Shown: one piece after another, positions 25,117 to 52,028 of the stretch
Layout: each line of letters starts with the position of its first letter
Numbering within the stretch: the stretch's first letter is position 1
Assembly (NCBI RefSeq): GCF_013409345.1
Contig: NZ_JACCBB010000001.1
Location: 2,790,001-2,854,000, forward strand
Length of the DNA: 64,000 nt
Source: Kineococcus aurantiacus
GTDB lineage: Bacteria > Actinomycetota > Actinomycetes > Actinomycetales > Kineococcaceae
Direction of reading: 5' to 3'
Program-made: the position numbers and the translations under genes
The notes under the pieces: model-generated
Told to the model about the DNA's origin: nothing
What the model saw: the letters and a program-made list of their open reading frames with translations, nothing else
The model's database searches: none

Positions 25117-27753
25117 GTGGACCTCAAGCTCACCACCCGCGCCCAGGAGGCGCTGGCTGACGCCGTCGGCCGCGCCACCACCGCCGGGCACGCCCAGGTC
25201 GAGCCCCTGCACGTCCTCGCCGCCCTGCTCGACCAGGAGAACGGCGTCGCCGGGCACCTGCTGCAGGCCGTCGGCGCCGACCAGGGCACCGTCGCCCGCC
25301 GCGTCTCCGGGGCCCTCGCCTCGCTGCCCAGCGCGTCCGGCTCCTCCGTGAGCCAGCCGCAGCTGTCCCGCCCCGCCCTGGCCCTCATGCAGGCCGCCGG
25401 CGACGAGGCGCGCGCCCTCGACGACGCCTACGTCTCCACCGAGCACCTGCTGCTCGGCGCCGCCGCGTCCACCTCGGCCGCCGGGGAGGCCCTGCGCGCC
25501 GTCGGCGCCACCCGCGACACCCTGCTCGACGCCCTGCCCTCCGTCCGCGGCGGGCAGAAGGTCACCTCGCCCGACCCCGAGGGCACCTACAAGTCCCTCG
25601 AGAAGTACGGCGTCGACCTCACCGAGCAGGCCCGCCAGGGCCGCCTCGACCCCGTCATCGGCCGCGACGCCGAGATCCGCCGCGTCGTGCAGGTCCTGTC
25701 CCGCCGCACCAAGAACAACCCCGTGCTCATCGGCGAACCCGGCGTCGGCAAGACCGCCGTCGTCGAGGGCCTCGCCCAGCGCATCGTCGCCGGCGACGTC
25801 CCCGAGTCGCTGCGCGGCAAGCGGCTCATCTCCCTCGACCTCGCCTCCATGGTCGCCGGCGCGAAGTACCGCGGCGAGTTCGAGGAACGCCTCAAGGCCG
25901 TCCTGAAGGAGATCCAGGACTCCGACGGGCAGGTCGTCACCTTCATCGACGAGCTGCACACCGTCGTCGGCGCGGGCGCCGGCGAGGGCGCCATGGACGC
26001 GGGCAACATGCTCAAGCCCATGCTCGCCCGCGGCCAGCTCCGCCTCGTCGGGGCCACCACCCTCGACGAGTACCGCGAGCGCATCGAGAAGGACCCCGCC
26101 CTCGAACGCCGCTTCCAGCAGGTCTTCGTCGGCGAACCCTCCGTGCCGGACACCATCGGCATCCTGCGCGGGCTGCGCGAACGGTACGAGGCGCACCACA
26201 AGGTCGCCATCTCCGACGCCGCCCTCGTCGCCGCCGCCACGCTGTCCGACCGGTACATCACCGCGCGCCAGCTCCCGGACAAGGCCATCGACCTCATCGA
26301 CGAGGCCGCGTCCCGGCTGCGCATGGAGATCGACTCCTCGCCCGTCGAGATCGACGAGCTCCGCCGCGCCGTCGACCGCATGAAGATGGAGGAGCTCGCC
26401 CTCTCCAAGGAGGACGACGCCGCCAGCCGCGAACGCCTCGACGCGCTGCGCCACAACCTCGCCGACCGGCAGGAGCAGCTCACCGCCCTCACCGCCCGGT
26501 GGGAGCAGGAGAAGGCCGGCCTCAACCGCGTCGGCGACCTCAAGCACCAGGTCGACGAACTGCGCTCGCAGGCCGAACGCCTCCAGCGCGAGGGCGACCT
26601 CGGCGGCGCCAGCGAGATCCTCTACGGGCGCATCCCCGCCCTCGAACGCGAACTCGCCACGGCGCAGGAGGCCGAGCAGGACGTCGCCGCGTCCGCGCCC
26701 ATGGTCGCCGACGAGGTCGGCCCCGACGACATCGCCGAGGTCATCGCCGGCTGGACCGGCATCCCCGCCGGCCGCCTGCTGGAGGGCGAGACCGAGAAGC
26801 TGCTGCGCATGGAGGAGTTCCTCGGCGCCCGGCTCATCGGCCAGACCACCGCGGTGCGGGCCGTCTCCGACGCCGTCCGGCGCTCGCGGGCCGGGGTCAA
26901 CGACCCCGACCGCCCGACGGGTTCGTTCCTGTTCCTCGGGCCTACCGGGGTCGGGAAGACCGAGCTGGCCAAGGCCCTGGCCGACTTCCTCTTCGACGAC
27001 GAGCGCGCCATGGTCCGCATCGACATGAGCGAGTACTCCGAGAAGCACGCCGTCGCCCGTCTCGTCGGGGCCCCTCCGGGGTACGTCGGCTACGAGGAGG
27101 GCGGTCAGCTCACCGAGGCCGTCCGGCGCCGGCCCTACTCGGTCGTCCTGCTCGACGAGGTCGAGAAGGCCCACCCGGAGGTGTTCGACATCCTCCTGCA
27201 GGTCCTCGACGACGGTCGCCTCACCGACGGCCAGGGCCGCACGGTCGACTTCCGCAACGTCATCCTCGTGCTGACCTCGAACCTGGGTTCGCAGTTCCTC
27301 GTCGACCCGGAACTGTCCCGGGCCACCAAGCACGACGCCGTCATGACGGCCGTCCGGGGGAACTTCAAGCCCGAGTTCCTCAACCGGCTCGACGACGTCG
27401 TGGTGTTCGACCCGCTGTCCACGACGGAGCTGTCCCGGATCGTCGAGATCCAGGTGCAGACCATGGCGAACCGGCTCGCCGACCGCCGCCTCACGCTCGA
27501 CGTCACCGACGCCGCGAAGGACTGGCTGGCCCTCACCGGCTACGACCCCGCCTACGGCGCCCGGCCGCTGCGCCGCCTCGTGCAGCGCGAGATCGGCGAC
27601 CGGCTCGCCCGGGCGATCCTGTCCGGCGAGGTCCGCGACGGCGACACCGTCGAGGTGGACGTCGCCCGCGGCAGCTTCGACCTCGACGACCCCGCCTCGG
27701 CCGAGCCGGCCGGGCTCGTCGTCCGGCGCGCCGAGACGCCGATGACGGTCTGA
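25117..27753 (+). CDS. clpB: ATP-dependent disaggregase ClpB
   Basis: Hsp100 chaperone of 878 aa that works with DnaK to rescue aggregated proteins. Order: Clp N-domain (about 1-145), AAA1 with Walker A GEPGVGKT (from residue 206), coiled-coil middle domain (about 410-525; [14 protein letters not shown]-like heptads), and AAA2 with Walker A GPTGVGKT (from 608). [19 protein letters not shown] linker precedes AAA1. GTG 25117 has GGAGGT 5-6 nt upstream. The HAIR operator 51 bp upstream predicts HspR repression and heat induction. Confidence 0.97.
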
Positions 27754-27766
27754 CCCGACCGCAGGC

Positions 27767-27802
27767 AGCGGGGCGGGGGTTCCCTGGAACCCCCGCCCCG
27801 CT
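27767..27802 (+). terminator. Strong hairpin terminator after clpB
   Basis: Perfect inverted repeat with 17-bp arms (AGCGGGGCGGGGGTTCC) and a 2-nt loop, 13 bp past the clpB stop. Its last bases run into the first 16-bp repeat unit. Confidence 0.8.
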
Positions 27803-27937
27803 GTGCTCGACCACCGCTGTGCTTGATCACCGCTGTGCTTGATCACCGCTGTGCTTGATCACCGGGAGGTGGGTCGACCACCAGCCTTCGGTGATCAAGC
27901 ACTCCCGTGATCAAGCACTTCGGTGATCAAGCACTCC
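27800..27937. repeat. 16-bp repeat cluster A: four direct then three inverted units
   Basis: Forward units start at 27800, 27816, 27832 and 27848; the consensus is GCTGTGCTTGATCACC, and the first reads GCTGTGCTCGACCACC. After a 26-nt centre (27864-27889), inverted units start at 27890, 27906 and 27922 (GGTGATCAAGCACTCC and variants). All are exactly 16 bp apart. The units fold back as one long hairpin. The cluster lies between convergent clpB and the DUF1772-like gene, and the last unit contains that gene's stop codon. An equivalent cluster is at 50039-50172. Confidence 0.85.
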
Positions 27938-28373
27938 TGCGGGCCGCGAGGGCGGTGGCCGCGGCCACGACCACCAGCGCGCGGCGCACGACGTGCGCCC
28001 GCTCCCACCGCGCCCGCGCCTCCCGCCAGCCCGGGGCCTCGTGCCCCGGCCGCCAGGTGCGCAGCCGCTCGTTGACCGGCACGTGCACCCGGACGGTCAG
28101 CACGACCGCGCCCGCGACCGCGGCCACCGACGCCGCCCGCCACGGCGCGGACCGGGGCCGGGCCGCGGCCGCGAGCACGCCGGTCGTCGCGGCGGCCACC
28201 GACAGCGCGGGGGCCAGCCGGCGCATGACCGCGTCGGCGCGCTGCTGGTGCCGGACGTAGTCGTCGAAACCCATGGCCCGGCGTCGCCGGCCGAAGGGCT
28301 CGGGGACGACCGCCAGCACCAGGGCGGCGGTGCAGACGTCGTGGGCGAGGGCCGCGCGGGTCGGGAGGTCCAC
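27927..28373 (-). CDS. DUF1772-like membrane protein
   Basis: Small membrane protein of 148 aa. It has hydrophobic segments at about 10-25, 55-72, 80-95 and 130-145, and the VHVPVNERLRTW ... WREARARWERAHVVRR pattern of the DUF1772 (anthrone-oxygenase-like) family. GTG 28373 has GAGGAT 6 nt upstream, the leaderless geometry. The TGA stop lies inside the last inverted 16-bp repeat, so the C-terminus was set where the repeat begins. Function unknown. Confidence 0.7.
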   Translation of the reverse strand: MDLPTRAALAHDVCTAALVLAVVPEPFGRRRRAMGFDDYVRHQQRADAVMRRLAPALSVAAATTGVLAAAARPRSAPWRAASVAAVAGAVVLTVRVHVPVNERLRTWRPGHEAPGWREARARWERAHVVRRALVVVAAATALAARRSA

Positions 28374-28401
28374 GCCCCGATCCTCCCGCAGCGGGGTCCG
28401 T

Positions 28402-29133
28402 TCAGCCGCGCGCGGCGCGCTCGACGATCTCGGCGGCGAGGTCGCGCAGCTTGCGGTTGGTGTTCTGGGACTGCTTGGCCAGGTGCGCGAACGCCTCCTC
28501 GGGGGTGCAGTGCAGGCTGGCCACCAGCACGCCCTTGGCCTGCTCGATGGTCGCCCGCGACCGCATGGCCAGCTGCAGGTTCTCGCTCAGCGCCACCGCC
28601 GAGGCGTACAGAGCGTGGTTGGCCAGGGCGACCGCCGCGTACCCGGCGAACACCTGCAGCAGCTGCACCGCCTCGTCGTCCAGGGGGCCGTCCTCGAAGC
28701 GGTAGACGTTGATCCCGCCGAGGACCGGCTGCGGCATCGGCAGGCCCAGGGACAGGGAGTTGCGGACTCCCTGGCGGGCGGCCGCGCGGGCGAAGTCCGG
28801 GTACACCTCGTCGGTGGCGGTGTCGTCGACCCGGATCAGCACCCCGCCCTGGGCGGCGTCGACGCAGGGGCCGAAGCCGCGCTCGTACTGCCGCTCGTCC
28901 AGGGCGGCGGCCAGCGAACCGGTGAAGGCGGCGCTGTGGCCCTTCTCGCCCTCCAGCAGCGTCACCGACACCTCGTCGGCGCCGGGCACGCACCGCTGCG
29001 TCAGCTCGGCGACCCGGCCCAGGACCTCGGACAGCGGGGTCTGGCCCACGACGAGCCGGCTCAGCTCGGTGAAGGCGTCGGCGGGGTCCAGCAGCTGCCC
29101 GGCGGACGGGGACGGCTGGGGGGTCTCGGGCAC
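28402..29133 (-). CDS. GAF-ANTAR antitermination regulator
   Basis: Cytoplasmic regulator of 243 aa. A GAF domain (about 20-170; YERGFGPCVDAAQGG, GVRNSLSLGLPM) is joined to a C-terminal ANTAR RNA-binding domain (about 185-240; RATIEQAKGVLVA, TPEEAFAHLAKQSQNTNRKLRDLA). ANTAR proteins bind paired hexaloop hairpins in nascent RNA and prevent termination. The GAF domain may sense a small ligand or redox state. GTG 29133 has GGAGGAG 5 nt upstream. Target RNAs are not visible here. Confidence 0.9.
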   Translation of the reverse strand: MPETPQPSPSAGQLLDPADAFTELSRLVVGQTPLSEVLGRVAELTQRCVPGADEVSVTLLEGEKGHSAAFTGSLAAALDERQYERGFGPCVDAAQGGVLIRVDDTATDEVYPDFARAAARQGVRNSLSLGLPMPQPVLGGINVYRFEDGPLDDEAVQLLQVFAGYAAVALANHALYASAVALSENLQLAMRSRATIEQAKGVLVASLHCTPEEAFAHLAKQSQNTNRKLRDLAAEIVERAARG

Positions 29134-43643: not shown

Positions 43644-43686
43644 GGTCGGCGGACCGCTGCGCACCGGGCGTGGGGTTGCGATCGCT

Positions 43687-43721
43687 GTGACCACGCTGCC
43701 GATCACCGGCAGCGTGGTCAC
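43687..43721. repeat. Perfect 15-bp-arm inverted repeat
   Basis: GTGACCACGCTGCCG and its complement flank a 5-nt loop (ATCAC), with partial outer symmetry GCGATCG/CGATCGC. It is upstream of the ankyrin gene's -10, so it is not a terminator for either divergent neighbour. Confidence 0.6.
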
Positions 43722-43767
43722 GACGATCGCCACCGCGCCCCCTCGGCGGCCCGGTTACGATCCGTCG

Positions 43768-49398: not shown

Positions 49399-50025
49399 GT
49401 GAGCGAGGCGGAGCAGCGGGTCGTCGGCGTCGGGCCCTGGGAAGGGGACTGGCCCGACGACCCGCGCTACGACCCGGAGCTGCTGCGCGAGGGGGACCGG
49501 CGCAACGTGCTCGACGGGTACCGCTACTGGTCGAACGCCGCCATCGTCGCCGACCTCGACACCCGCCGGAACCCGCTGCACGTCGCGGTGGAGAACTGGC
49601 AGCACGACGCGAACATCGGCTCGGTCGTGCGGACGGCCAACGCGGTGAACGCCGCCGGCGCCCACGTCGTGGGGAACCGCCGGTGGAACCGCCGCGGGGC
49701 CATGGTCACCGACCGGTACCTCAGCACCCACCACCACGCCGACGTGGCGGCGCTGGCGGCGTGGGCCGCCGAGCGGGGCCTGCCGATCGTGGGCATCGAC
49801 AACGTCGAGGGGTCGGTCCCGCTGGAGACCTACGACCTGCCCCGCGAGTGCGTGATGCTCTTCGGGCAGGAGGGGCCGGGGCTGACCGGCGAGGCCGTCG
49901 GCCACTGCGTCGACGTCCTGGCCATCGCCCAGTTCGGCTCCACCCGCTCGATCAACGTGGGAGCCGCCGCCGCGGTCGCCATGCACGCGTGGGTGCGGCG
50001 GCACGTGTTCGGCCAGCGGCCCTGA
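49399..50025 (+). CDS. SpoU-family RNA methyltransferase
   Basis: TrmH/SpoU 2'-O-ribose methyltransferase of 208 aa with the three knot motifs: NIGSVVRTANA, MLFGQEGPGLT and STRSINVGAAAAVAMHAW. Target could be tRNA or 23S rRNA. GTG 49399 has GATGAT 6 nt upstream, the same arrangement as prfC. Repeat cluster B begins 13 bp after its stop. Confidence 0.92.
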   Translation: MSEAEQRVVGVGPWEGDWPDDPRYDPELLREGDRRNVLDGYRYWSNAAIVADLDTRRNPLHVAVENWQHDANIGSVVRTANAVNAAGAHVVGNRRWNRRGAMVTDRYLSTHHHADVAALAAWAAERGLPIVGIDNVEGSVPLETYDLPRECVMLFGQEGPGLTGEAVGHCVDVLAIAQFGSTRSINVGAAAAVAMHAWVRRHVFGQRP

Positions 50026-50038
50026 CCCGCACCGCCCC

Positions 50039-50172
50039 GCGGTGCTCGACCACCGTCGTGCTCGACCACCGTCGTGCTTGATCACCGTCGTGCTTGATCA
50101 CCACGAGGGGGGATGCCTCCCGGTGGTGATCAAGCACTCTCGTGATCGAGCACTCCCGTGATCGAGCACGTG
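50039..50172. repeat. 16-bp repeat cluster B: four direct then three inverted units
   Basis: Forward units start at 50039, 50055, 50071 and 50087. The first two carry GTGCTCGACCACC; the last two read GTCGTGCTTGATCACC. After a 22-nt centre (50103-50124), inverted units start at 50125, 50141 and 50157 (GGTGATCAAGCACTCT, CGTGATCGAGCACTCC and CGTGATCGAGCACGTG). Period is exactly 16 bp, and copy numbers (4+3) match cluster A. It lies between convergent genes. Confidence 0.85.

Positions 50173-50212: not shown

Positions 50213-52028
<1,816 letters not shown>

Follow-up and report, generated by a model that had tools for sequence, protein, structure and literature searches.

The window, by which we mean the whole 64,000-nucleotide stretch of DNA analysed here, corresponds to C1:2790001-2854000 of the 5,027,298-base genome (two contigs) of Kineococcus aurantiacus. 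Within it, clpB is followed by a terminator-like hairpin and by a cluster of 16-bp units, cluster A, which runs into the end of a gene of the opposite strand with an Anthrone_oxy domain (a family formerly named DUF1772). A second cluster, cluster B (50042-50169), has the same build of four direct and three inverted cores and lies between an rRNA methylase gene and a transglycosylase/LysM gene (Table 1).

The preliminary description of this DNA had reported seven units at 16-bp steps, four direct and, beyond a 26-nt centre, three inverted, and we confirmed this arrangement at 27800-27937. Unit 1, which shares the last four bases of the clpB hairpin, has two mismatches (GCTGTGCTCGACCACC), and the inverted units have two, three and two mismatches, each outside the 12-bp core. 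The mismatch-free pairing claimed for the cores of units 2-4 was likewise found. The 4-nt spacers, which read cgct throughout the left arm and tccc or ttcg in the right one, do not pair, and the stem is therefore interrupted by internal loops. The description was also right that the last unit supplies a stop codon, the gene at 27927-28373 (-) ending on the TGA of that unit. Searching the window with up to three mismatches returned 12 unit matches (seven in cluster A, four in the second cluster and one elsewhere), compared with a mean of 0.36 and a maximum of two in 100 shuffles of the window.

Table 1. Features at and around clusters A and B (positions in the window)
Feature	Position	Strand	Remarks
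clpB, upstream neighbour of cluster A	25117..27753	+	ORF; Pfam ClpB_D2-small, Clp_N, AAA_2
clpB terminator-like hairpin	27766..27803		18-bp perfect stem, 2-nt gap; inverted repeat 27766-27783/27786-27803
Cluster A, left arm	27800..27863	+	four direct 16-bp units (27800-27815, 27816-27831, 27832-27847, 27848-27863); every spacer CGCT
Cluster A, centre	27864..27889		26 nt
Cluster A, right arm	27890..27937	-	three inverted 16-bp units (27890-27905, 27906-27921, 27922-27937); exact cores, differing spacers
Anthrone_oxy gene	27927..28373	-	Pfam PF08592; final codons and TGA from last cluster A unit
SpoU-type rRNA methylase gene, to the left of cluster B	49399..50025	+	ORF, Pfam
Cluster B, left arm	50042..50101	+	four 12-bp cores, 16-bp steps (two CTCGACC variants, two exact)
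Cluster B, centre between cores	50102..50125		24 nt
Cluster B, right arm	50126..50169	-	three inverted cores (one exact, two CTCGATC variants)
Transglycosylase/LysM gene, to the right of cluster B	50213..51223	-	start codon uncertain

A repeat family of one genome

We counted the 12-bp core GTGCTTGATCAC across the 5.03-Mb genome and found 121 copies, with none for the reversed-pattern control. The sequence GTGCTYGAYCAC had 208 copies genome-wide (58 + 150; controls 6 + 0). With 121 exact cores, the concern that the unit might occur only once or twice per genome, in which case there would be no repeat family, can be set aside. To define clusters, 60 stretches around core matches were taken together with the window and resolved into 65 groups, six of which were dropped as a lone inexact unit, a lone inexact pair or a lone palindromic variant each. 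The remaining 59 clusters hold 218 units at up to two mismatches, and their 121 exact units equal the whole-genome total of exact cores; 59 is a possible undercount in that more decayed clusters may be missing. The 4+3 build noted at cluster A is found in two clusters of the window but is not a general rule.

As the preliminary description had proposed, the search was extended to relatives, which were scored for tandem pairs of cores. There were 51 such pairs in the Kineococcus genome of origin and none in 58 others, 10 of them of the same genus; a looser tandem pattern gave 102 matches against none in the 58. The tandem core pattern was also absent from genome_contigs and viral_contigs (collections in which the genome of origin is perhaps not included), and a distant BLAST search with cluster A against plasmids and phages gave no match. 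A 400-kb stretch of one congener, G008, showed no excess of analogous repeats of period 16. The strongest 12-mers in two 400-kb stretches of G008 reached z 12 and 11, compared with z 80 for the core in its own loci, a set chosen around the clusters.

At the corresponding locus of G008, clpB and the Anthrone_oxy gene are separated by a hairpin that differs from the one seen here, and the cluster is lacking. Judged by eye, the DNA that follows the clpB stop is different in almost every one of 10 Kineococcus genomes (L040-L049), and it is thus a variable spot in the genus. The part of the chromosome that was compared contains 27 gene pairs with a cluster. Synteny with G008 is kept at 11 of them, and five of these 11 hold at least 400 bp extra in that genome. 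Among 170 pairs without a cluster, 83 were syntenic and only five of them had at least 400 bp extra in G008 (p 0.002). We considered whether clusters had replaced lost genes, as the five sites suggested. Two variable sites were tested, and at both the extra gene has a patchy distribution among the congeners; we therefore claim site variability only and not gene loss through clusters.

These comparisons bear on the origin of the family. A selfish miniature mobile element of the REPIN or MITE kind, whose position at gene ends reflects tolerance of insertion and brings the host no benefit, would account for the absence of tandem pairs from the 58 relatives searched and for the variability of the sites, that after clpB included. 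On the other hand, a profile for the RAYT transposase (Y1_Tnp, PF01797) found nothing in the single genome of origin, with matches in five of 14 control genomes. Copies are not near-identical beyond the core and the centre, and no target duplication was seen, the G008 sites being too diverged to show one. Given the patchiness of the extra gene at two sites, the change there may also have had a cause other than the cluster. We give this explanation a substantial chance, somewhat short of even; it does not exclude the reading that we favour below, with which it overlaps on origin and from which it differs on function.

Anatomy and growth of the arms

Neighbouring units of the same direction are spaced at 16 bp in 112 of 116 cases, and the number of units per arm ranges from one to six. 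Where a minus unit is followed by a plus unit, so that the GTG ends face each other (head-to-head), the step is 24 bp in 15 of 23 cases. Orientation switches once in 41 of the 59 clusters and twice in one, leaving 17 with a single orientation (two single units and 15 clusters of two or more units). The one-switch clusters comprise 22 head-to-head and 19 tail-to-tail examples (plus then minus, like cluster A). The single giant hairpin described for cluster A is therefore a common form and not a defining one, given the 17 single-orientation clusters.

Two further modules recur besides the units. A 12-nt centre is present in 15 head-to-head clusters, as TCCTGTCCACAA in either direction in seven and as a variant in eight. 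The other is a G-rich stretch on the CAC side: G makes up 65% of the 12-nt flank beyond an outward CAC end and 33% beyond a GTG end. Given this bias, the repeat piece seems to be directional, consisting of centre, unit array and G-rich stretch. Tail-to-tail centres vary in length and by eye many are G-rich and then C-rich. The 12-nt centre of eight of the 15 head-to-head clusters contains TGTCCACA, which falls a single letter short of the DnaA box of actinobacteria. At another locus (L114 3037-4022; G000:C1:3291136-3292121), a gene of 274 aa lies between a half of three minus units, followed by TTGTGGACAACT, and a half of four plus units, an arrangement that looks as if the gene sat inside an opened head-to-head element. 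Its product has weak matches to REase_MTES_1575 and DUF559, both below the curated cut-off.

The 4-nt spacers (n=112) are CGAA (30), GGGA (15), CGGA (11), CGCA (11), CGCT (9) and others. Their distribution informs on how arms arose, as identical spacer pairs made up 43 of 61 comparisons within an arm, five of 61 between opposite arms and 706 of 6094 between different clusters. In 25 two-orientation clusters of at least four units, exact units were found at 20 of 50 outermost and 58 of 80 inner positions (p 4e-4). Because spacers are alike inside an arm and unlike between arms, arms appear to have grown by local duplication. The spacer and edge pattern fits local tandem duplication inside the arm with decay at its edges. 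It is not the pattern expected if one arm had been copied from the other.

Placement relative to genes and to the origin

We evaluated placement using gene calls from our own codon-usage ORF script, in which short genes and starts may be wrong. Among 58 gene pairs with a cluster, 28 are convergent, 24 tandem and six divergent, and the 349 pairs without one divide into 51, 232 and 66, respectively. Clusters are thus in excess at convergent gene ends (p 5e-8), which supports a repeat family with a strong positional preference. Distances from facing codons, measured for 58 clusters with L082 left out, point the same way: facing stop codons lie at a median of 18.5 bp from the cluster (58 of 80 within 30 bp), and facing start codons at a median of 76.5 bp (three of 36 within 30 bp). 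In 17 of the 28 convergent pairs neither stop is more than 30 bp from the cluster, which leaves no room for another hairpin. The earlier remark that the cluster need not serve as a terminator thus holds for clpB, which has its own hairpin, but does not extend to these 17 pairs.

Reading frames also end within the clusters. Sixteen flanking predicted genes terminate inside them, every one on TGA. TGA is found on each strand of an exact unit, on one strand of the C6 variants and on neither strand of the CGACC variants; since 16 is not a multiple of three, three exact units cover all three frames with TGA. A single exact copy of the core (L082) lies well inside a predicted gene.

On the chromosome, 48 of the 59 clusters fall within 1.21 Mb of a parS-like site at 2398797 (the sole one at up to one mismatch), that is, in the half of the chromosome closest to that site (p 1e-6); dnaA is at 2393221. 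This bias is among the reasons for considering that the 12-bp core is the site of a sequence-specific DNA-binding protein, acting as a roadblock to transcription or as a chromosome organiser, with inverted arms and hairpins as a by-product. Such a protein would also explain why the core is conserved and the spacers are free to vary from one arm or cluster to another, why one-orientation arrays of two or more units exist, and why the outermost units are less often exact. However, a 16-bp step sets neighbouring sites on opposite faces of the helix, the core is only partly symmetric, and no candidate protein emerged. Termination explains the strong preference for 3' ends over promoters equally well or better. 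We regard this protein-binding account as unlikely.

Folding of the predicted transcripts

With the clpB hairpin included, the predicted RNA of cluster A has a folding energy of -140.1 kcal/mol, compared with -75.4 in shuffles (sd 4.5); for cluster B the energy is -109.4 kcal/mol, compared with -70.6 (sd 4.0). A consensus scan for a GC hairpin followed by a T run found no terminator in the cluster A region (27300-28600). Intrinsic bidirectional terminators consist of a very stable hairpin between convergent stop codons. Cluster A differs from them in having no T run, and the family as a whole differs in its repeated core and in its 17 single-orientation clusters. That the clusters are ordinary intrinsic terminators, alike by chance, would be consistent with their position and hairpins. 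The 121 identical 12-mers, the common 16-bp step and the lack of tandem pairs in congeners exclude such chance likeness, and we consider this explanation refuted as a full account, with a negligible probability.

We also evaluated whether partner units in opposite arms match each other. At position 6 (T or C), partner units agreed in 50 of 68 cases; rank-matched shuffles averaged 35.8 and none of 5000 reached the observed value. Compared with shuffles within clusters there was no excess (34 of 46, reached by 1027 of 5000), so that agreement between arms may be due to shared origin and not to pairing. Upkeep of RNA pairing unit by unit was thus not borne out by the within-cluster test. For the outer arms of head-to-head clusters (22), pairing exceeds that of swapped arms: 43, 23, 7 and 28 of 5000 swaps were as good for 10, 14, 20 and 24 nt, respectively, and 33 of 5000 in another run at 14 nt. 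In clusters of the cluster A type, pairing was no better than in swapped arms, either for inner arms (13 of the 19 clusters, those with a centre of at least 16 nt) or for outer arms (all 19).

Comparison with known repeat classes

The family resembles REP, BIME and REPIN sequences in being a species-specific short word of high copy number with hairpin-forming inverted pairs near 3' ends. Those elements are described as favouring convergent and unidirectional spacers near 3' ends (PMC3733652, PMC3116915). The inverted doublet typical of REPINs is present in the 41 one-switch clusters, with the 24-bp step between facing units. The Kineococcus core differs from these classes in being tandem at 16 bp inside each arm. 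REP sequences associated with REPINs and RAYTs carry a GTAG or CGTC tag at one end (PMC3733652). In the clusters with their 12-nt flanks, either strand considered, GTAG is found in one of 59 and CGTC in 20 of 59, at no constant place as read. With neither a RAYT match in the genome nor a constant tag in the clusters, the family does not belong to the REPINs. The main text of the REPIN paper nowhere uses the word 'Actinobacteria' (PMC3733652).

BOX elements of Streptococcus pneumoniae, in which boxA and boxC flank an array of boxB (PMC3049150), offer a second likeness: both are composite, folded repeats with an inner module in variable tandem number. They differ in that the Kineococcus arrays themselves form the two opposed arms of the stem. 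For MITEs the expected marks are terminal inverted repeats and a target site duplication. The outer arms of the 22 head-to-head clusters pair better than swapped ones, as given above, and the G008 sites are too diverged to show a duplication.

A further candidate class is the DNA uptake sequence. Neisseria has a short species-specific word whose inverted pairs are proposed as terminators (PMC2267715), and an uptake signal would explain the short, fixed, species-specific core and its inverted pairs at gene ends here, with the pairs doubling as terminators. An uptake word should be frequent in genes as well, and here only one exact copy is found well inside a gene. With only 121 exact cores in 5.03 Mb, copies are also few for an uptake word, and tandem 16-bp arrays would not be expected. 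We consider this role very improbable.

Searches of the open-access literature for the letters of the core, on one strand each, returned papers that were unrelated as judged by title, and a search for Kineococcus with repeats found nothing related. This agrees with the remark in the preliminary description that no described family with this form was known to it, insofar as none was found in the open-access literature. Arrays that form both arms of a stem are not described in the parts of the REP, REPIN and BOX literature compared. The 16-bp unit family would represent a new type within a known class of genomic repeat, the REP/BOX kind.

A model for the family

The copy number, the modular build, the placement at 3' ends, the stops supplied by units, the absence from the relatives searched and the likeness of spacers within arms are observed, and the reading that we judge best, with somewhat better than even confidence, is a small interspersed repeat of the REP/BOX kind that is specific to one lineage, forms arrays and probably provides transcript-end hairpins and stop codons. 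The basic piece would be a directional half-element, with a 12-bp core (mostly AGTGCTYGATCAC) repeated one to six times at 16-bp steps and a G-rich stretch beyond the CAC end of the core array. Halves would be joined head-to-head, mostly around the 12-nt centre (TCCTGTCCACAA or variants), or tail-to-tail around a loop with G and C arms, or would stand alone. Copies may have dispersed to insertion-tolerant spots downstream of stop codons, where arms could afterwards have grown by local tandem duplication. In RNA, pairing of the inverted arms would give highly stable hairpins, which would delimit the transcripts arriving from either side and shield their 3' ends. The TGA of exact units, present on both strands and shifted by one frame with each 16-bp step, would close incoming reading frames. 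The clusters probably function, then, as a two-way transcript-end hairpin combined with a stop-codon cassette.

Several results stand against this transcript-end reading. The 17 single-orientation clusters cannot form the large hairpin, six of the 58 cluster-bearing gene pairs are divergent, and clpB retains a hairpin of its own. In addition, cluster A has no T-run terminator around it, and fine base-pair compensation between arms is not borne out by the within-cluster test. Arms of the cluster A type pair no better than swapped ones, C6 and CGACC variants lose TGA on one or both strands, and neither a RAYT mover nor a target duplication was found. The main rival on function is a protein that knows the core and, on benefit, a purely selfish element.

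A more far-reaching proposal, which we find doubtful, is that the family is an undescribed, array-forming mobile palindrome of Actinobacteria, built from a directional half-element of centre, 16-bp unit array and G-rich tail, that disperses to 3' ends by a route other than RAYT, is read by a species-specific factor that recognises the core, and rewires the ends of transcripts throughout the half of the chromosome nearest the origin. The data suggest that a set of gene ends in one species, the stops of 16 predicted genes among them, was refitted with a single repeat after the split from the congeners searched. The family is a clean system for studying how a repeat spreads without a known transposase and whether it sets transcript ends. 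The bias to the origin half and the fixed 16- and 24-bp steps make the search for a binding factor direct.

Other features of the window

Near cluster B, a c-di-AMP (ydaO/yuaA) riboswitch was found at 50936-51106 (-) with 52 bits, on the strand of the transglycosylase/LysM gene. It was the sole Rfam match at gathering score in the whole window, and its position implies that the listed start of the LysM ORF (51223) is probably too far upstream. Tandem repeats of 18 bp at 50375-50506 encode an Ala/Pro-rich linker in the same gene. Elsewhere in the window, at 43653-43755, there is an imperfect 49-bp inverted repeat with a 5-nt gap and 76% complementarity, which has GTGACCACGCTGCCG and CGGCAGCGTGGTCAC near its middle and differs from the core of the 16-bp unit family.
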